In this document: piece by piece, positions 1 to 8,072 of the stretch
How positions within the stretch are numbered: position 1 is the first letter of the stretch
How the letters are laid out: each line of letters starts with the position of its first letter
NCBI GenBank assembly: GCA_020348925.1
Contig: CP070758.1
Location: forward strand, 3,702,688 to 3,711,455
DNA from: Gemmatimonadota bacterium
Lineage (GTDB): Bacteria > JBHIER01 > G020348925
DNA: 8,768 nucleotides
Direction: 5' to 3'
Notes under the pieces: generated by a model
Database searches by the model: none
Seen by the model: the letters and a program-made list of their open reading frames with translations, nothing else
Told to the model about the DNA's origin: nothing
Translations under genes and position numbers: made by a program

Positions 1-579
1 AACGAACCGGCTTGCGCCTCCGCCTGCCTCGTAGGTGCCTTCAAGAAGACGCCTGAGGGAGCAGTTACATACAATGAGGATATATGTATCGGTTGCCGAT
101 ACTGCATGACTGCCTGCCCCTTCTACATCCCCGCCTATGACTACGCCAGCCCCTTCAGTCCAAGGGTTAGCAAATGTACGCTCTGCTATGACAGGATTAA
201 AGGGGGCGATGTGACGGCATGCGCCGAAGCTTGCCCTGCTGAAGCTATCCTATTCGGCAAAAGGAACGAGCTGATCGATATTGCCCGGCAACGGATTCGG
301 GAAGATCCAGACGCATACGTAAACCATATTTATGGTGAGTATGAAGCCGGGGGAACGAGCTGGTTGTACCTTTCAGCAGTTCCCTTCGAGAAAATCGGAT
401 TCCAGAAGGACATCGATAAAACTCCACCTCTGGCCCGTGCCGGGGGATTTCTCTCAATGGTTCCTGCCGTACTCGTGATATGGCCGGCTCTTCTGGGAGC
501 CTTTTATTCTGTGGCAAAACGTCGGGATACAATTGCTGAAGTCACAGACACGACTAAAAAAAGAGAGGGGGTGAAATAA
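1..579 (+). CDS. HybA/HmcB-type 4Fe-4S ferredoxin subunit with C-terminal membrane anchor (5' partial)
   Basis: The frame is open from base 1, so the gene starts upstream of the window; 192 residues are visible. The protein should carry electrons through several [4Fe-4S] clusters between a catalytic or multiheme partner and the membrane subunit encoded next. Visible cysteine groups are CASAC at the left edge, CIGCRYCMTACP, CTLC, and CAEACP, the usual multi-cluster arrangement of the HybA/DmsB/HmcB ferredoxins. The stretch GGTSWLYLSAVPFEKIGF is typical of HybA-like proteins. A hydrophobic helix at about nt 442-513 (GGFLSMVPAVLVIWPALLG) followed by a basic tail is the C-terminal membrane anchor seen in HybA and HmcB. 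The stop codon overlaps the next start (TAATG), which implies translational coupling. The enzyme it serves cannot be named because upstream genes are missing. Confidence 0.93.
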   Translation, partial: NEPACASACLVGAFKKTPEGAVTYNEDICIGCRYCMTACPFYIPAYDYASPFSPRVSKCTLCYDRIKGGDVTACAEACPAEAILFGKRNELIDIARQRIREDPDAYVNHIYGEYEAGGTSWLYLSAVPFEKIGFQKDIDKTPPLARAGGFLSMVPAVLVIWPALLGAFYSVAKRRDTIAEVTDTTKKREGVK

Positions 580-1799
580 TGGAGGAGATCGCCGTTCGTA
601 CTGGAGACTTTCAATCGTGGGCCAGGGAAAAGGTCTTCATGAGCAAGACCTTTGCTCAATATATGAAATCACTTTTCACCCCATTCAACCTTATCACTGG
701 ACTGATCCTTCTCTTCGGACTTTCTCTCATTGTACTTCGATACATCCAGGGTCTGACGGTTGTCATGCATCCTTCCAATACGTATCCGTGGGGACTGTTT
801 ATCGGTTTCGGACTCCTTTGCGTTGTTCCCCTTGCAGCTCCGGGATTTGTTATGGCCTCGGCCGTATATCTGTTTGGTCTCAGAGAATACCGTCCCCTCC
901 TCAGACCCGCTGTTCTTATAGGTCTATTGGGCTATATTTCCGCCGTCGTCTTTCTTCTTATTGACCTGGGTCGTCCGTGGCGACTTCCTTATCCCATGCT
1001 GGTCTCTTACGGTACCGCCTCGATTCTTTTCTTCGTGTCCTGGTCGGTGGCATCACATGTGTTTCTCTATTTGATCGAGTTCTTTCCGGCCATTTTGGGG
1101 TGGCTTGGTGAGACTCGTTTCCGTCGCTGGATTTCGAAGTTGACTGTCGGTGCTGCCATGTTGGTCGTCATGTTGTCGACACTCCATCAGTCTGGTCTGG
1201 GAGCTCTCTTTCTCCTCATGCCGGGAAAAGTACATCCCCTCTGGTACTCGCCCTATCTTCCCGTGTTCTTCTTCATCTCCTCCATCTTCGCCGGACTTTC
1301 CATGGTTATCCTTGTGAGCACACTCTCTGCGAAACTACTTCGCGACAGAGCCGATGTGAGCTTCCTGGCAAACTTGGACAACCTCACTCTCGGGCTCGGG
1401 AAAGCTGCATCTGTTGTGCTCTTCACCTATTTCGCGATGAAGGTTGTCGGGATTGCCCATGGAAGCCATTGGAACTTCCTGAGCACACCATATGGTCTCT
1501 GGTTTCTTTTCGAGATGGTCTTGTTCGTACTTCTCCCCTGTTTTCTCTTCGCATCTGGCTTCAGAAACAGAAATGTCGCTCTTATACGATTTTCGTCCGT
1601 AATAACCATCGTGGGCCTCATCCTTAACCGGCTAAACGTTTCTATCATCACATTTAATTGGACTCTTCATCATCGTGAGTACCCCAAATGGACGGAATAC
1701 GTTATTGCCGTAACCATTATTACTATAGGAGTTCTCGTTTACAGATGGATTGTGAACCGAATGGCCGTACTCAGAGAATATGGGGGTGAAGAACATTAG
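579..1799 (+). CDS. HybB/NrfD (PsrC)-family integral membrane quinone-interacting subunit
   Basis: A 406-residue, very hydrophobic protein with about ten predicted membrane helices; the first is near residues 37-56 and the last near 374-392. HybB/NrfD/HmcC proteins exchange electrons between the membrane quinone pool and a partner ferredoxin subunit, here the gene immediately upstream. Family-like stretches are MHPSNTYPWGLFIGFG (63-78), the LIDLGRPWR loop (127-135), and HQSGLGALFLLMPGKVHPLW (203-222), which closely resembles HybB. The start at 579 is chosen because it overlaps the upstream stop by one base and follows a purine-rich GAGAGGGGG Shine-Dalgarno region. Whether it feeds electrons into or out of the quinone pool cannot be decided from this window. 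Family assignment is confident; membership of a particular complex (Hyb, Hmc, Cbc-like) is not. Confidence 0.93.
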   Translation: MEEIAVRTGDFQSWAREKVFMSKTFAQYMKSLFTPFNLITGLILLFGLSLIVLRYIQGLTVVMHPSNTYPWGLFIGFGLLCVVPLAAPGFVMASAVYLFGLREYRPLLRPAVLIGLLGYISAVVFLLIDLGRPWRLPYPMLVSYGTASILFFVSWSVASHVFLYLIEFFPAILGWLGETRFRRWISKLTVGAAMLVVMLSTLHQSGLGALFLLMPGKVHPLWYSPYLPVFFFISSIFAGLSMVILVSTLSAKLLRDRADVSFLANLDNLTLGLGKAASVVLFTYFAMKVVGIAHGSHWNFLSTPYGLWFLFEMVLFVLLPCFLFASGFRNRNVALIRFSSVITIVGLILNRLNVSIITFNWTLHHREYPKWTEYVIAVTIITIGVLVYRWIVNRMAVLREYGGEEH

Positions 1800-2083
1800 A
1801 GAAAGGAGGATTATACCTACTAAAATGTGGAGTATACAATTCGCTCACTCATGACCAAAGATGTTCTCATTGGGATTCTCATGTTATGTAATTCTCTTGA
1901 TGAAAGCCCATAGTCAGGAAGGCAGAATGAGTCCATTACCTCTTATTACAATCCATGATGATTGCTCTCCGTTGAAAAGGGCCGCTGATGGAGTTAGTAT
2001 GTTTTTACGGTTTAAGCCGGCGCAGTTTTTTGGAGGGCTGCCCCTGAAAACTACTCACACAATACCTAAGGAGGATATGCATT
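1800..2083 (+). other. Intergenic leader with orphan ribosome-binding site
   Basis: This 284-base stretch separates the membrane-subunit gene from the first GcvH-like gene. A strong Shine-Dalgarno-like AAAGGAGGA (1802-1810) is followed only by very short reading frames: ATG 1825 gives 9 codons and ATG 1851 gives 20 codons (MTKDVLIGILMLC...). A longer frame (from 1861, or from ATG 1927) runs out of frame into the next gene and has no recognisable protein features. The site may mark a decayed small gene, a leader peptide, or nothing functional. A promoter candidate inside it is listed separately. Confidence 0.4.
1972..2000 (+). promoter_or_regulatory. Candidate sigma-70 promoter for the GcvH-like genes
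   Basis: TTGAAA (1972-1977) and TAGTAT (1995-2000) are separated by exactly 17 bases. This is five of six matches at -35 and four of six at -10. Transcription would start near 2007, giving a leader of about 77 bases before the ATG at 2084. It would let the GcvH-like pair be expressed apart from the upstream membrane genes. The call rests on sequence match only. Confidence 0.4.
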
Positions 2084-2779
2084 ATGAATACCCTGTTAGA
2101 TTATATGACTCGGACGTTGGGAATTGAGTACCTCATAGCAGTCGTGTTCATTGTCGGATTCGTCCTGTATTGGCGTTTCCTGACGGGTCCGGAGCAGATG
2201 AGAGTGAGAGAGGTCATAAGAAGGATCAGAGATGTCGTTGGTGGATTTGTGCTCCCGGATCACGTCTTCTATCACCAGGGTCATGCCTGGGCAAGAATAG
2301 ACGACAAGAACGTGGCCACCATCGGACTGGACGATTTTGCTCAGAAACTTGTGGGTAAAATCGATGCCGTTCACATGCCGGGCGTCGGTTCCCCACTCAG
2401 ACAGGGGGAGAAGGGATGGTCCTTGGAGGTCAATTCGCGACCAATCGACATGCTTTCGCCGGTAGACGGAGAAATCCTTTCGGTGAATGAAGAACTCATC
2501 AATTCACCCGAAACAGTTAATACTGATCCCTATGGTAAAGGCTGGTTGATGAAGGTTCGTGCACCGAGGATTTCAGCGAATGTCAAAAGTCTCCTGTCTG
2601 GTGATCTTGCCAAAAGGTGGATAGAAGAGGCGAGAGAAAATCTCCTGTCCAGGGGCAATTATGAGCTTGGCCTCATGTATCAAGATGGAGGTTTGCCCGT
2701 TGATGGTATGGCGAGAAACTTAGATCCAGAGAGATGGGATACAATAGCGAAGGAATTTTTTCTCATCACCGAAGAATGA
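2084..2779 (+). CDS. Membrane-anchored GcvH-like protein lacking the lipoyl lysine
   Basis: A 231-residue protein. Residues 15-32 form one hydrophobic helix (IEYLIAVVFIVGFVLYW), and a GcvH/biotinyl-lipoyl-like fold follows at about 57-160. Recognisable GcvH landmarks are HAWARIDDKNVATIGLDDFA (67-86), SPVDGEILSVNEEL (125-138), INSPETVNTDPYGKGWLMKV (139-158). In true glycine-cleavage H protein a lysine eight residues before the Pro of the 'SP.SGE' segment is lipoylated; here that position is Ser118. The protein therefore cannot carry lipoate in the usual way and is unlikely to act in glycine cleavage. The C-terminal extension (about 165-231) contains DGGLPVDG, similar to the tail of the next gene, which suggests duplication. 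The start follows a strong AAGGAGG (2068-2074) at 9-base spacing. Length is well above the roughly 130 residues of normal GcvH. Function unknown. Confidence 0.88.
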   Translation: MNTLLDYMTRTLGIEYLIAVVFIVGFVLYWRFLTGPEQMRVREVIRRIRDVVGGFVLPDHVFYHQGHAWARIDDKNVATIGLDDFAQKLVGKIDAVHMPGVGSPLRQGEKGWSLEVNSRPIDMLSPVDGEILSVNEELINSPETVNTDPYGKGWLMKVRAPRISANVKSLLSGDLAKRWIEEARENLLSRGNYELGLMYQDGGLPVDGMARNLDPERWDTIAKEFFLITEE

Positions 2780-2855
2780 GAAATAGGTGCGTTGCGCCTT
2801 ATTGACGAAGATTACATTTCTTTTCTTCTTTTAGGTTGAAGGAGACGATGATATT

Positions 2856-3707
2856 GTGAAAAAAGAAAAGGGACGAAAAGAGCGAAAAGGGCGTCTCATC
2901 CCCGAAGGGGAATTGAAGTGTGTCTGGATGGAAGCCGGGGTCGTCTCGTACAAGTTGTGCGATTACGAGTATGAGTGCGAGAGATGTCCCTTTGATCAGG
3001 TTCTGAAAAAGAGAGCAAAAGCATCTGTTTCTCAAAACACACTTTCGGGGAGACACTCAGGCTTACAAAGGATATCGACAGAAAAGGAGGCTGCGAAAAA
3101 TCCACCGGTGGTTAACGAAACCATAAATTTTGACAAGATCTTTCAAGAATTTTACGACATAGAATTTCAAGAGGGTTTATTCTATCACCCCGGACATACC
3201 TGGGTCGATATCGAAAATCCTAACATCGTGAAGATAGGCCTTGACGGTTTTGCTGGGAAATTTCTTCTCGGAATAAAGATGGCCATTCTACCAACAGTGA
3301 GGAATAGAACGGACCGTGGGCAGGTTTGTTGTTGGATTGTTGAAGAGGAGGGAACGCTGCCCATTATTGCTCCACTTACCGGGGCCGTGATTGCCATCAA
3401 CCACCGACTCTCCAGGGAACCAACTCTCATTAACAGAAATCCCTATGAACAGGGTTGGCTCATGAAAATAGAACCTGAAGACTTGCACCGCGACCTTCAA
3501 TACCTCTCTCGTGAACATGAGATACCTCCTCACCATAAAATGGAACTGGAGACATTGAGAACAACACTTGAATCTCACTTGAGAGGAAACTGGAAGCATG
3601 TGGGGCCGACACTGTGTGACGGCGGAAGAATGCTCGATCATATCCGGGATATGATCGGTCCGAAAAGATATTTCGAAATCGTAAGCACCTTTTTCAAGAT
3701 AAAGTAA
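2856..3707 (+). CDS. GcvH-like protein with N-terminal Cys-rich motif, lacking the lipoyl lysine
   Basis: A 283-residue protein starting at GTG 2856, preceded by AAGGAGA (2839-2845). The nearby ATG 2848 meets a stop after three codons, so GTG is the likely start. The N-terminus is highly basic, followed by a cysteine motif with C22, C35, C41, C44 (CVWMEAGV...KLC...YECERCPFD), which could bind a metal or an iron-sulfur cluster (inference). A GcvH-like domain spans about 105-205: GLFYHPGHTWVDIE, NIVKIGLDGFAGK, IIAPLTGAVIAIN, NPYEQGWLMKIEP. The residue aligned with the lipoyl lysine is Glu165. The C-terminal part, with CDGGRMLD, parallels DGGLPVDG of the preceding paralogue. No membrane helix is evident. 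A weak GC hairpin (2785-2799) lies between the two genes, but 76 bases and a shared theme suggest co-transcription. Function not known. Confidence 0.87.
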   Translation: MKKEKGRKERKGRLIPEGELKCVWMEAGVVSYKLCDYEYECERCPFDQVLKKRAKASVSQNTLSGRHSGLQRISTEKEAAKNPPVVNETINFDKIFQEFYDIEFQEGLFYHPGHTWVDIENPNIVKIGLDGFAGKFLLGIKMAILPTVRNRTDRGQVCCWIVEEEGTLPIIAPLTGAVIAINHRLSREPTLINRNPYEQGWLMKIEPEDLHRDLQYLSREHEIPPHHKMELETLRTTLESHLRGNWKHVGPTLCDGGRMLDHIRDMIGPKRYFEIVSTFFKIK

Positions 3708-3933: not shown

Positions 3934-5493
3934 ATGAAATTCACAAGATTACTCAGTTTCCGACTTGTCTGCCTTATGCTAACAGTTATGATCGTCTTTT
4001 TCGGACTCTATACGTATATCAATATTCACGTTCATACCTCCCACCTCATGGAAAACGTACACCTCTCCGCCAACCGGGTCAGTGACGTGATCAAAAGATC
4101 GACCCATTACAGCATGCTCTTGAATCGCAGGGATGACCTGTACCACACAATCCAAACCCTCGGTGACGAACCCGGAATGGACGGGATCAGAATTTACAAC
4201 AAACGGGGTGAAATCATGTTTTCCACCACCCCGGGTGAGGACGGAACAAGTGTCGATCTCCAGGCTGAAGCCTGCTACGTGTGTCACGCCGAGGAGAAAC
4301 CCCTGGAAGCTTTACCCATCACAAAACGCTCCCGAATCTTTTCCTCGCCTCAGGGCCATCGCGTCATGGGCGTCATAAATCCCATCATGAACGAGCCCGG
4401 TTGTTACAACGCCGAATGCCATGCTCATCCCTCCACGCAAGCAGTTCTCGGCGTTCTGGATGTGAAAATGTCCTTGGCTCAGGTGGATACAAGAGTGGCC
4501 GAAAGCAGAACACGAATGATCTCGTATGCGGTTCTCCTGATTGTGATAGTCACCATACTCTCGGCAGGATTCATCTTTTTTATGGTCCACTCTCCTGTGA
4601 AAAAACTCATAGCAGGCACTCAGGAGATTTCCAGCGGCAATCTGAACCATGAAATAGACATCCAATCGTCCGATGAGATAGGTCATCTCGCCCAGTCTTT
4701 CAATCTCATGACGCGCAACCTCTCCAAAGCGCAGGATCACTTGTGTCAGATGGAAAAGATGGCTTCCGTCGGAAAGCTTTCCGCCACAGTCGCTCATGAG
4801 ATCAACAATCCTCTGGCAGGAGTGCTCACCTATACGAAACTCGTCATGAGAATGCTCAAAAAGGAGCGTGTAACATCCGAGGAAAAAAAGTCGGTGGAGA
4901 AGTATCTGACGTTTATTAAAAGCGAAACAGCGCGCTGCGGTGATATTGTTAAGAATTTGCTCCTCTTTTCCAAGAGAACCGGGGGCGATTTCCGGCATGA
5001 GAGTCTCGACACGATCATAGAGAAGAGCCTCCAGTTGGTGAATCACCACCTGGAAATTCAGGGGATCACTCTGGAGAAAGTTCTATGTGAGGAGGACGAC
5101 ATCATTTTCTGCGACGCCAACCAGTTACAACAGGCCTTCATTGCCCTCTTCGTCAACAGTGTCGAGGCCATGCCCAAGGGTGGGACCTTGAAGGTAAAAA
5201 CCGACTGTAAGAAAGGCGATGATACCGTCCGCATTGCCATTTCGGATTCAGGCCACGGAATTCCCGAGGAGGTGAGGCCGAATATCTTTGATCCCTTTTT
5301 CTCAACCAAAAAGGACGAGAAACGGATCGGACTCGGTTTGTCTGTCGTCTACGGAATCATACAGCGACATGGCGGCGCAATTGACGTTCAATCGGAACCT
5401 GACAAGGGAACGATCTTCACTATCACGCTGCCCAGACAAGAACCTGAAAAGGACGAGAAACGCGTTGAATTAATAGAAGAAGCTGTCGCTTAG
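3934..5493 (+). CDS. Membrane sensor histidine kinase with two periplasmic c-type heme motifs
   Basis: A 519-residue kinase. Membrane helices at about 8-30 and 196-219 bracket a periplasmic sensor region. That region holds a CXXCH heme motif (CYVCH, 114-118) and a CX4CH motif (CYNAECH, 157-163), a spacing known from multiheme cytochromes such as c3. A HAMP linker follows at about 219-272. The HisKA H-box is SATVAHEINNPL with phospho-acceptor His288. The ATPase domain has its N box at NSVEAMPKGG (Asn408), G1 at DSGHGIP (438-444), and G2 at GLGLSVV (466-472). Covalent c-heme attachment fits the periplasmic location. The likely signal is redox state or a heme ligand such as NO, CO or O2 (inference). 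The gene ends 16 bases before the response regulator, its obvious partner. The start at 3934 follows AGGAGA (3925-3930). The specific ligand is unknown. Confidence 0.94.
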   Translation: MKFTRLLSFRLVCLMLTVMIVFFGLYTYINIHVHTSHLMENVHLSANRVSDVIKRSTHYSMLLNRRDDLYHTIQTLGDEPGMDGIRIYNKRGEIMFSTTPGEDGTSVDLQAEACYVCHAEEKPLEALPITKRSRIFSSPQGHRVMGVINPIMNEPGCYNAECHAHPSTQAVLGVLDVKMSLAQVDTRVAESRTRMISYAVLLIVIVTILSAGFIFFMVHSPVKKLIAGTQEISSGNLNHEIDIQSSDEIGHLAQSFNLMTRNLSKAQDHLCQMEKMASVGKLSATVAHEINNPLAGVLTYTKLVMRMLKKERVTSEEKKSVEKYLTFIKSETARCGDIVKNLLLFSKRTGGDFRHESLDTIIEKSLQLVNHHLEIQGITLEKVLCEEDDIIFCDANQLQQAFIALFVNSVEAMPKGGTLKVKTDCKKGDDTVRIAISDSGHGIPEEVRPNIFDPFFSTKKDEKRIGLGLSVVYGIIQRHGGAIDVQSEPDKGTIFTITLPRQEPEKDEKRVELIEEAVA

Positions 5494-5509: not shown

Positions 5510-6853
5510 ATGGAAAATATAGATGTCGGGATCCTGGTTGTGGACGACGAGCTCGTTGTGAGAGACTCGCTGTACAATTGGTTCAAAGAGGACGGCTACC
5601 GGGTGGACACGGCCGAAGACGCCAAAATGGCTTTGAAAAAGCTGCAGGAGAGCTCCTGGGATATCGTGCTCCTGGATATCAAAATGCCTGGTATGGACGG
5701 CATGGAACTCCAGAAGAGAATCAAAGAGATCGACGCCAATATGATTGTGATCATGATTACGGCCTACGCCTCTGTGGACACGGCCGTGCAGGCACTCAAG
5801 GAGGGCGCCTTCGATTACATCACCAAGCCCTTTGATCCGGACGACATGGGCCACCTCATCAGAAATGCCGTTGCCCAGCGAAAACTGACAGAGGAGAACA
5901 TCCAACTCCGCCAAAAAATTGACGAGTTGTCCAAATTCGATGAAATCATCGGCGACAGCCCAGCCATGAAACGGGTCTTTGAGCTGGTCGAAACGGTCGC
6001 GCAATCCGACGCCACTGTCGTCATTCACGGTGAGAGCGGGACCGGCAAGGAACTTGTGGCCCGGGCCGTTCACAGCAACAGCCCGCGCCGCTATTTTCCC
6101 ATCATCCCTGTCAACTGTGGAGCTCTGCCAGAGGGGATACTCGAGAGTGAGATTTTCGGACACGAGAAGGGAGCCTTCACAGGCGCCCAATACCGGCGCA
6201 AAGGGAAACTTGAGATGGCCGACGGAGGCACCCTCTTCCTGGATGAGATCAGCAGTATCGGTACAAAGACGCAGATGGATCTGTTGCGGGCGCTGGAGAC
6301 GAAGCAGTTCACACGTCTGGGCGGAACCAAGGAGATCACTGTCGATTTCAGGATTATATGTGCTACGAACCAGAACCTTGAAAAGATGGTCGAGGAGGGA
6401 ACCTTTCGAGAGGACCTCTATTATCGCATCAATGTCTTCTCCATCTACCTCCCCCCTCTGCGGGAGCGGCGTTCGGACATCCCGCTCCTGGCGAACCACT
6501 TCGCCCAGAAATATGCCTTGGCGATGAACAAAAAAATCACCCAGATCTCACCCGGGGCTTTGGATCTATTGGTTCAGCACGACTGGCCGGGCAATGTCAG
6601 AGAATTGGAGAACGCCATTGAGCGGGCCATGGTTGTCGGCAAACCGCCCCGTATTATGGCAGAGGATCTTCCCTTTCAGCTCAGTGCGAAGAAAACGGAT
6701 CTGACGTCCGATTCCCTGGAGGAAATCGAAAAAACTCATATACAGCATATTTTGGAGCGCATGGAGTGGAACATCACACGCTCTGCCGAGGTCCTCAAAA
6801 TCGATCGTGTCACCCTCTACAACAAAATTAAAAAATACGGCCTGAAAAGATAA
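5510..6853 (+). CDS. NtrC-family sigma-54-dependent response regulator
   Basis: A 447-residue activator with the full three-domain layout. The receiver domain (about 5-120) has acidic pair D12/D13, phospho-acceptor Asp56 (LLDIKMPG), Thr84 and Lys106. The AAA+ domain (about 145-380) has Walker A GESGTGKE (174-181), the sigma-54-contacting loop GAFTGA (221-226) intact, and Walker B GGTLFLDE (239-246). A Fis-type helix-turn-helix is at the C-terminus (about 421-447, NITRSAEVLKIDRVTLYNKI). Intact GAFTGA means it should activate sigma-54 promoters. It is co-transcribed with the heme kinase and should be phosphorylated by it. GGGAG (5493-5497) serves as ribosome-binding site. A candidate target promoter with enhancer-like dyads lies at 7506-7749 in this window. 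Confidence 0.96.
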   Translation: MENIDVGILVVDDELVVRDSLYNWFKEDGYRVDTAEDAKMALKKLQESSWDIVLLDIKMPGMDGMELQKRIKEIDANMIVIMITAYASVDTAVQALKEGAFDYITKPFDPDDMGHLIRNAVAQRKLTEENIQLRQKIDELSKFDEIIGDSPAMKRVFELVETVAQSDATVVIHGESGTGKELVARAVHSNSPRRYFPIIPVNCGALPEGILESEIFGHEKGAFTGAQYRRKGKLEMADGGTLFLDEISSIGTKTQMDLLRALETKQFTRLGGTKEITVDFRIICATNQNLEKMVEEGTFREDLYYRINVFSIYLPPLRERRSDIPLLANHFAQKYALAMNKKITQISPGALDLLVQHDWPGNVRELENAIERAMVVGKPPRIMAEDLPFQLSAKKTDLTSDSLEEIEKTHIQHILERMEWNITRSAEVLKIDRVTLYNKIKKYGLKR

Positions 6854-6858
6854 CGTGA

Positions 6859-7404
6859 ATGGCTTTCATCTGTGTTGTTCCTGTACATCTGCCACAAGAA
6901 TCCCTCCTCATCCCTCTTCTGGAACACATCTCATCATCCTTCCATCGAGAAACACGAATCGTTTTTCTCCCCATCGATCCCTCTTTCGCTTACGACCACT
7001 CCAGGAAACAGCATAACTCTTCCCTGCTCCTGGCCAAGCTGGTGGATATCAAGCCAAAGGACGCTCTCAGGATAGTGGGCGTCACCGATCTCGACCTCTT
7101 CATTCCTATCCTCACCTTCGTTTTCGGCGAAGCCCAGCTCAGCGGTCCTGCCTCCATCGTCTCAACGCAGAGGCTGAGAAACGAATTTTACGGTCTCCCA
7201 AAAAACGACGGACTGTTGCAGCAACGTTTGGAGAAAGAAGCGATCCACGAGCTCGGCCACACCTTCGGCCTCGTCCATTGCCGGAATGATCTGTGCGTGA
7301 TGAGACCCTCAACCTACGTCGAGAACATCGATCTGAAGCCACCGCAACTGTGTTACTCCTGCCTGAAAACCATCGACGAAAAATTGAAGGCCATTCCCCC
7401 CTAA
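6859..7404 (+). CDS. amzA: Archaemetzincin-type zinc metallopeptidase
   Basis: A 181-residue protein matching the archaemetzincin pattern. The zinc-binding site is HELGHTFGLVH (130-140; His130, His134, His140; catalytic Glu131). A second, structural zinc site is formed by Cys141, Cys146, Cys165 and Cys168 (HC-X4-CVM, then CYSC), and Met148 follows as expected. Archaemetzincins are small soluble peptidases found in archaea, some bacteria and vertebrates; a bacterial physiological substrate is not established to my knowledge. The start at 6859 lies five bases after the regulator's stop with no clear Shine-Dalgarno, so translation is probably coupled to the regulator. There is no signal peptide, so it should act in the cytoplasm. 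Its tight linkage to the two-component pair suggests involvement in the same response (inference). The gene symbol is assigned by family only. Confidence 0.93.
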   Translation: MAFICVVPVHLPQESLLIPLLEHISSSFHRETRIVFLPIDPSFAYDHSRKQHNSSLLLAKLVDIKPKDALRIVGVTDLDLFIPILTFVFGEAQLSGPASIVSTQRLRNEFYGLPKNDGLLQQRLEKEAIHELGHTFGLVHCRNDLCVMRPSTYVENIDLKPPQLCYSCLKTIDEKLKAIPP

Positions 7405-7505
7405 TCTTTCCGCTCCGAACACCCCTCAAAAATGAAGCGGACTGAAAATCGTAAAGTGCCGGCGTGACATTCTGGGAAGTGAGCCCCCCGAGGGAGAACC
7501 CGAAA

Positions 7506-7522
7506 TGGCGGAAAATGCGAGG
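7506..7522 (+). promoter_or_regulatory. Enhancer-like dyad, site 1
   Basis: TGGCGGAAAATGCGAGG matches 13 of 17 positions of the best site (site 2 read on the minus strand). Its centre (7514) is 21 bases, two helical turns, from the centre of site 2, as expected for adjacent dimers of an NtrC-type activator. It lies about 246 bases upstream of the predicted sigma-54 start site. Confidence 0.45.
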
Positions 7523-7526
7523 GGAG

Positions 7527-7543
7527 TGTCGTATTTTCCGACA
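7527..7543 (-). promoter_or_regulatory. Enhancer-like dyad, site 2 (best copy)
   Basis: The plus strand reads TGTCG-N7-CGACA, a perfect 5-bp dyad spanning 17 bases; the minus strand reads TGTCGGAAAATACGACA. The size, symmetry and distance (about 225 bases upstream of the predicted start) fit an upstream activating sequence for a Fis-HTH regulator. The gene for such a regulator is 5510-6853. Confidence 0.55.
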
Positions 7544-7606
7544 ATCGTATAACTCATGAATATAGTAGAAACATACGGCACTTTACGGATATACAACAAA
7601 TTCTAT

Positions 7607-7623
7607 TGTCGGAAAATCCTACG
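7607..7623 (+). promoter_or_regulatory. Enhancer-like dyad, site 3
   Basis: TGTCGGAAAATCCTACG matches 14 of 17 positions of site 2, including the whole left half TGTCGGAAAAT. It lies about 145 bases upstream of the predicted start. The right half-site is weaker (CTACG instead of CGACA). Confidence 0.5.
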
Positions 7624-7733
7624 TTTTAATGCTGTTTTCTTCCACTCCAAGACCCACCGTTTTTTTTATTCATCATTCATAATTTATAAATAAACATAGT
7701 CTTAGATTGCAAAGATTTTCGAAGCACGAATTC

Positions 7734-7749
7734 CGGCACACTTCTTGCA
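7734..7749 (+). promoter_or_regulatory. Sigma-54 (RpoN) -24/-12 promoter
   Basis: CGGCACACTTCTTGCA fits the sigma-54 consensus TGGCAC-N5-TTGCA at every position except the first base, with correct GG-N10-GC spacing. Transcription should begin near 7760. It sits downstream of three enhancer-like dyads and upstream of a 45-codon ORF, and the window encodes a sigma-54 activator. Basis: motif match seen in sequence; activity is inferred. Confidence 0.8.
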
Positions 7750-7791
7750 ATTTTATATACCTGACAAGTTTTCAATCAAGGGCACGGTTCA

Positions 7792-7929
7792 ATGAAAAAT
7801 GCACCGGTTTTCACACCCGATGAACTTCGTACAGCGACAAGAAGCAGCGACTCACGTGAACAGGGATTTTCGGATATTAATTTCTCAGAGAATGTCGAAG
7901 AAGGCACTCACTTTTTTCAATCTTTTTAG
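7792..7929 (+). CDS. Putative 45-residue small protein under the sigma-54 promoter
   Basis: ATG 7792 to TAG 7927-7929 encodes a polar, somewhat acidic peptide beginning MKNAPVFTPDELRTATRSSD and ending NFSENVEEGTHFFQSF. There are no cysteines, no membrane helix and no signal peptide. AAGGG (7778-7782), nine bases before the ATG, is a weak ribosome-binding site. The ATG is 32 bases after the predicted sigma-54 start, a normal leader length. Its last 27 bases overlap the left arm and loop of a long hairpin. I recognise no family. The alternative is that the transcript is a non-coding RNA and the frame is chance. A longer overlapping frame (7799-8020) is highly basic and starts less well. Confidence 0.45.
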   Translation: MKNAPVFTPDELRTATRSSDSREQGFSDINFSENVEEGTHFFQSF

Positions 7930-7981
7930 AAAATCATTCATTGCACGCAATCGAAAAGTGAGTGCCGTGTATTTTTCTTTT
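7903..7981 (+). terminator. Long hairpin with T-rich tail at the end of the sigma-54 transcript
   Basis: GGCACTCACTTTT (7903-7915) pairs perfectly over 13 bp with AAAAGTGAGTGCC (7954-7966), followed by GTGTATTTTTCTTTT. The loop of 38 bases holds a small dyad ATTG/CAAT. It could be an intrinsic terminator with an unusually large loop, or a 3' structure of a small RNA. The left arm lies within the small ORF, which links structure and coding sequence. Confidence 0.5.
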
Positions 7982-7988
7982 CATCGGA

Positions 7989-8046
7989 GGAATGGGAGAA
8001 TTCTCCTTAAAAAGATTTGAATGGGGGCAGGGGATTCTCCCGTTCC
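7989..8046 (+). repeat. 13-bp inverted repeat with nested 12-bp palindrome
   Basis: GGAATGGGAGAAT (7989-8001) pairs with ATTCTCCCGTTCC (8034-8046) with one G-T pair. Nested in the left arm is the perfect palindrome GGAGAATTCTCC (7995-8006), so two alternative folds compete. There is no T-run, so this is not a standard terminator. It lies directly downstream of the 7903-7981 hairpin and may be part of the same structured RNA or a short repeat element. Confidence 0.5.
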
Positions 8047-8072
8047 CCACTGAAGAAGTAGAGGGAACATAA
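7992..8072 (+). CDS. Possible 26-residue small ORF
   Basis: ATG 7992 to TAA 8070-8072 encodes a peptide starting MGEFSLKRFEWGQGILPFPT and ending EEVEGT. GGAGG (7986-7990) is present but only one base from the ATG, which is too close for efficient initiation. The composition is protein-like, with aromatic and proline residues in an ordered pattern, but the frame coincides with a 13-bp hairpin and may be chance. No family recognised. Confidence 0.2.
   Translation: MGEFSLKRFEWGQGILPFPTEEVEGT

Follow-up and report, generated by a model that had tools for sequence, protein, structure and literature searches.

A putative sigma-54-dependent small RNA unit beside a heme-kinase two-component system in a Gemmatimonadota bacterium

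Our analysis suggests that a short unit downstream of a two-component system operon is a sigma-54-dependent small RNA gene that lies beside its own regulators. The unit is contained in an 8,768-nt stretch of DNA (hereafter the window). We consider a small RNA the best overall explanation of the unit, with about an even chance of being correct. The promoter and dyads of the unit occur at a level above chance, the motif class to which they belong is common to other lineages and to a paralogous operon of the same genome, and the open reading frame within the unit carries no coding signal.

The kinase-regulator module and its partner redox operon

A sequence-only reading of the window had described the neighboring operon as one encoding a heme kinase and an NtrC-type activator, and had linked it to an archaemetzincin. 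All three genes were confirmed: the kinase contains two heme motifs, the NtrC-type regulator contains GAFTGA, and the third product is an archaemetzincin. The genes upstream of the unit are as follows.

1 to 3707, plus strand: partner operon containing genes for an HmcB-like Fe-S protein (5′ end cut by the contig edge), an HmcC-like NrfD protein and two GcvH-like proteins
3934 to 5493, plus strand: membrane sensor kinase with HAMP, HisKA and HATPase domains and the c-heme motifs CYVCH (residue 114) and CYNAECH (residue 157)
5510 to 6853, plus strand: NtrC-type response regulator with GAFTGA and a Fis-type HTH (recognition region IDRVTLYNKIKKYGL)
6859 to 7404, plus strand: archaemetzincin (peptidase family M54; PF07998, and NF033823 above its cut-off)

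The kinase was present in 28 of approximately 390 diverse genomes searched, and a scan of genome contigs returned one distant kinase only; all of the compared genomes belong to phyla other than that of the window genome. Both heme motifs (CxxCH and CxxxxCH) occupy fixed positions in 23 of the 24 kinases examined, with the remaining one keeping only the second, and the HTH sequence IDRxTLYxKI is kept in most of the linked regulators. The kinase, regulator and archaemetzincin genes recur across unrelated bacterial lineages, at many loci beside GcvH-like, HmcB-like Fe-S and HmcC-like NrfD genes, and the gene order of this module is rearranged between lineages.

The HmcC-like protein scored 436.6 against a cut-off of 550 and thus falls below the Hmc-complex equivalog threshold. 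The lipoyl-accepting lysine is absent from all 30 aligned GcvH-like proteins of the module (window 2084-2776 and 2856-3704; loci L043, L047-L065 and L109-L118), and it is present in the true GcvH of this genome (G000:C1:1720518). By their sequences, the module proteins appear to serve an Hmc/Nrf-type complex, either as a subunit or as an accessory, without being lipoylated. We also observed that the N-terminus of one GcvH-like protein (2084-2190) matches the HmcD model with 41.4 bits, over a cut-off of 34, which suggests an HmcD-GcvH fusion.

Sigma-54 promoters were found just upstream of the gcvH operon at L047, L048, L054, L055 and L115, each with a frequency of at most 1 in 300 shuffles; those at L051 and L065 were weaker, and those at L052 and L110 were unconvincing. 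A motif search was carried out on 12 regions upstream of gcvH operons, two of which (L109 and L043) came from the window's own genome, while the window itself was left out. The two top-ranked motifs were TGTTG-N7-CAACA in 7 of the 12 regions (0.1 expected) and GTTGA-N5-TCAAC in 8 of the 12 (0.2 expected), which are the same dyad in another register. The conserved target of the regulator, as predicted from these comparisons, is the gcvH-like/HmcB-like/HmcC-like redox operon, whose products would transfer electrons at the membrane.

Two loci of the same genome bear on how this operon is controlled. L043 is a complete paralogous operon with the order gcvHa-FeS-NrfD-gcvHb-HK-RR-AMZ, preceded by the promoter TTAGGCATACCTTTTGCAAA and the dyad TGTCGGATTATCCTACG. 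At L109, the promoter ATTGGCACACTCTTTGCGAT (near 8801) precedes gcvHa and an Fe-S gene within which the contig ends. The window coincides exactly with a single contig of a draft assembly joined by 100-N spacers, and the last 443 bp of L109 (10250-10692) match window positions 1-443 at 94%, such that the match reaches both contig ends as a dovetail. No second close NrfD gene that could be paired with L109 was found in the genome. Most simply, L109 and the window would be two pieces of a single operon that the assembler broke at a variable stretch, although two copies of the Fe-S gene are possible instead. If they are one operon, the redox operon of the window probably carries a sigma-54 promoter of its own on the L109 contig, outside the window. 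Because the dyads at the L109 promoter are degenerate copies (8/10) of the TGTTG type, one and the same regulator might bind the two promoters with unequal strength. Neighbors in the assembly were considered as part of the unit and rejected, since the window spans an entire contig and genes beyond the 100-N joins are uninformative. The other end of the contig (8186-8768) consists of a dispersed repeat; dozens of partial copies of this repeat family are spread over the genome.

Given that a sigma-54 promoter precedes the redox operon in the L043 and L109 arrangements, the small unit would be an additional output of the circuit rather than its end point, as had been proposed. The same proposal recommended searching for the promoter and dyad at related operons, and the outcome was divided. 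The dyad class and sigma-54 promoters were recovered upstream of the gcvH operons as described above, but 12 other archaemetzincin loci showed no such small unit after their last gene, with no more than 150 bp of sequence to inspect at one of these loci. Thus, the unit is lineage-restricted as far as sampled.

The promoter and dyads of the intergenic region

The elements found between the archaemetzincin gene and the predicted transcription start are the following; positions of dyad centers are relative to that start, and no strand is assigned to the dyads.

7506 to 7522: D3, weak copy of the enhancer motif (TGGCGGAAAATGCGAGG), matching 7 of 10 half-site positions
7527 to 7543: D1, perfect dyad TGTCG-N7-CGACA (TGTCGTATTTTCCGACA), centered at about -225; proposed regulator site
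7607 to 7623: D2, dyad with one perfect and one 3/5 half-site (TGTCGGAAAATCCTACG), centered at about -145
7734 to 7749, plus strand: sigma-54 -24/-12 promoter (CGGCACACTTCTTGCA), identified by pattern match and shuffles; expected start at about 7760

The promoter had been called near-perfect, and this description held. In TCCGGCACACTTCTTGCAATTT, GG (7735-7736) and GC (7747-7748) are separated by the exact 10-nt spacing, which predicts a start at 7760. The sequence matches the TGGCACR-N4-TTGCW context of the sigma-54 test, with the T at -26 replaced by C. An equally good match was found in 0 of 1000 dinucleotide shuffles of 400 bp, and the pattern YYGGYACN5TTGCW turned up in 2 sequences when the whole intergenic region was shuffled 4000 times. 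In our estimate, it is highly likely from its sequence that this promoter is functional, and likely that it is controlled by the neighboring regulator or by the genomic paralogue of that regulator.

Of the three 17-bp dyads originally listed, D1 is perfect and D2 is good, whereas the 7/10 score of D3 is at background level. A perfect 5-7-5 dyad was contained in 6 of 4000 shuffles, and D1 is the sole perfect copy in the intergenic region. D1 and D2 share one half-site, and the core CGGAAAAT is common to all three. D2 is identical at 15 of 17 positions to TGTCGGATTATCCTACG (L043 4757), which lies upstream of the paralogous gcvH operon (0 of 3000 shuffles), and the distance from D2 to the GG of the -24 element is 128 bp in the window versus 127 bp at L043. 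In a genome-wide regulon check that covered pattern matches and selected genome stretches, 33 perfect dyads were found, and a convincing sigma-54 promoter lay within 500 bp of D1 alone. D1 represents the TGTCG version of the cross-lineage TGTTG-N7-CAACA dyad, and mixed variants occur at L054 (TGTCGAAGAATGCAACA) and L055 (TGTTTAATATATCGACA). A perfect 12-bp inverted repeat (CGTAAAGTGCCG; 7450-7461 and 7576-7587, 114 nt apart) was also noted, and it brackets D3 and D1.

Since the search that left out the window identified TGTTG-N7-CAACA upstream of the linked gcvH operons, the dyads of the window are very probably sites for the family of the neighboring regulator. The earlier view that the dyads and promoter belong together is upheld by the same observation, as this dyad class and sigma-54 promoters accompany the linked gcvH/NrfD operons of other lineages. 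The paralogous regulator encoded at L043 has a similar HTH and could bind D1 and D2 instead.

The putative transcript and rival explanations

Downstream of the promoter we recognized the following features.

7760 to 7985, plus strand: proposed sigma-54-dependent transcript of about 210-225 nt, favored as a small RNA and predicted from the promoter and the 3′ stem
7778 to 7782, plus strand: AAGGG, weakly resembling a ribosome-binding site when read from the sequence, 9 nt before the ATG
7791 to 7980, plus strand: possible closing helix of 7791-7804 with 7967-7980
7792 to 7929, plus strand: ORF45, an open frame of 45 codons with no family or homologue, probably incidental
7903 to 7966, plus strand: perfect 13-bp stem (7903-7915/7954-7966) with a 38-nt loop, followed by a T-rich stretch (7972-7981); probable 3′ end

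The 13-bp stem was found in 0 of 1000 shuffles, and the fold z-score for 7895-7975 is -3.35. The T-rich stretch begins about 5 nt past the stem, which is late for a textbook terminator. The possible closing helix, noticed post hoc, has 12 of 14 positions complementary (10 of 2000 shuffles) and would cover the ATG and the U-rich tail. Folding of the whole transcript is ordinary (z about -0.8), and no match to any Rfam RNA family was found in the window. Predicted RNA duplexes with the start regions of the module genes had energies of -31 to -43, and none beat the controls (mean -40, minimum -54). A second strong hairpin (7985-8050; z -3.28), lacking a T-run, follows immediately after the unit.

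The small open reading frame with a 3′ hairpin was thus found in part as originally described: the frame is open and the stem is perfect, but neither homologues nor codon usage support coding. Searches of 58 other genomes returned chance-level matches only, and searches of plasmids, Pfam and NCBIfam returned none. The codon score of ORF45 is below that of 99% of real-gene slices and resembles that of mechanical ORFs, 45 codons providing weak statistics. From these sequence properties ORF45 is probably incidental. The product had been read as a 45-residue protein or a small RNA and not an enzyme; indeed no recognizable enzyme is encoded in the transcript unit, and of the two remaining candidates a small RNA appears to fit better. 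We estimate that the product is somewhat more apt to act as RNA than as protein. A model in which translation of ORF45 antiterminates an operon was dropped, as no recognizable plus-strand gene lies between the stem and the contig end.

Three rival explanations were weighed against the small RNA. ORF45 might encode a real regulatory or accessory protein of 45 residues (MKNAPVFTPDELRT...FFQSF) that responds to the same signal as the redox operon. Its frame opens 32 nt downstream of the predicted start, AAGGG lies 9 nt ahead of the ATG, its stop codon lies inside the stem-loop, and atypical codons are frequent in small proteins. However, the failure to find a homologue, codon usage that scores within the bottom 1% of real-gene slices, and the strong GGAGG-type ribosome sites of the linked operons, in contrast to AAGGG at ORF45, make this explanation unlikely. 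Similarly doubtful is the possibility that the promoter and enhancers are a relic of a former copy of the gcvH operon, left by duplication or rearrangement and driving nothing useful. This would account for the similarity between the D2 region, including its distance to the -24 element, and the paralogous gcvH operon's promoter, and is consistent with the rearranged gene order of the module and the dispersed repeats just downstream. A relic would be expected to decay, however, and the promoter and D1 are intact, form the best dyad-promoter pair that we found and are better than the dyads at L109; nor did inspection reveal a gcvH remnant after the promoter.

That the dyads and the -24/-12 element are coincidental seems very improbable. 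Strict sigma-54 motifs numbered 16 in the genome versus 7 with a reversed control, and some of the genomic motifs are therefore chance matches; D3, for its part, scores at background level. Against coincidence, a perfect dyad, a paralogue-like D2 and a strong promoter occur jointly in one intergenic gap beside the regulator. Taken together, the small RNA remains our preferred reading of the unit.

Proposed circuit and comparison with known systems

In the proposed mechanism, a heme or redox signal would lead the periplasmic two-heme sensor kinase to phosphorylate the NtrC-type regulator, which would bind dyads of the TGTYG-N7-CRACA type and activate sigma-54 RNA polymerase via DNA looping. Two kinds of promoter would respond: a conserved one that precedes the gcvH-like/HmcB/HmcC-like redox operon and, in this genome, an additional one at 7734-7749 downstream of the archaemetzincin gene. 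The latter would give rise to a transcript ending after the 7903-7966 stem, most likely a small RNA. Regulator binding, transcription, and the function and targets of the RNA are what we infer here. More tentatively, a heme-sensing two-component system of many unrelated lineages, wired through sigma-54 to a redox complex with non-lipoylatable GcvH, may have gained a lineage-specific sigma-54 small RNA, or a peptide, with a feedback effect on respiration, in which case the RNA family would be an undescribed one.

Our literature searches returned no paper that treats archaemetzincin together with sigma-54 or that links GcvH to NrfD and Hmc, and nothing of relevance came up when the terms were combined more loosely. 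The analysis thus provides a testable regulon (signal, activator motif and sigma-54 promoters) for a widespread module for which we found no matching description, together with a predicted small RNA beside its own activator.

The redox operon resembles Hmc/Nrf/Qrc-type NrfD complexes in its HmcC-like NrfD protein, Fe-S dicluster subunit and GcvH-like protein with an HmcD-like N-terminus. It differs from them in its HmcC score below the cut-off, its non-lipoylatable GcvH-like proteins, and its association with a heme kinase and sigma-54 regulation. For the small unit, the relevant comparisons are with CrcZ and GlmY. CbrA is not known to be a c-heme kinase, and CrcZ has a known mechanism, sequestration of the Crc repressor, whereas the RNA of the window is predicted from sequence and the main target of the circuit would be the redox operon. 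Otherwise the arrangement is like that of CbrAB-CrcZ/CrcY in Pseudomonas, a two-component system with a sigma-54 activator and a separate downstream unit, which is a regulatory RNA there and a putative one here (PMC8871633, PMC6296734). crcZ forms a unit of its own downstream of cbrAB (PMC8871633) and is activated by CbrB (PMC6296734), which, unlike the regulator predicted to bind the dyads of the window, uses unusual, non-palindromic subsites (PMC6296734). In Enterobacteriaceae, glmY adjoins qseEGF and has three QseF sites upstream (PMC8745638). QseEF (GlrKR)-GlmY likewise places a sigma-54-controlled small RNA gene, putative in our case, beside a two-component system; glmY, however, is upstream of the kinase gene and kept across the family, in contrast to the window unit, which has no Rfam match. 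The likeness to CrcZ and GlmY that we propose is one of layout and control, and we do not assign the unit to any RNA family. Should the RNA prove real, it would extend the CrcZ/GlmY pattern to heme-based redox sensing.
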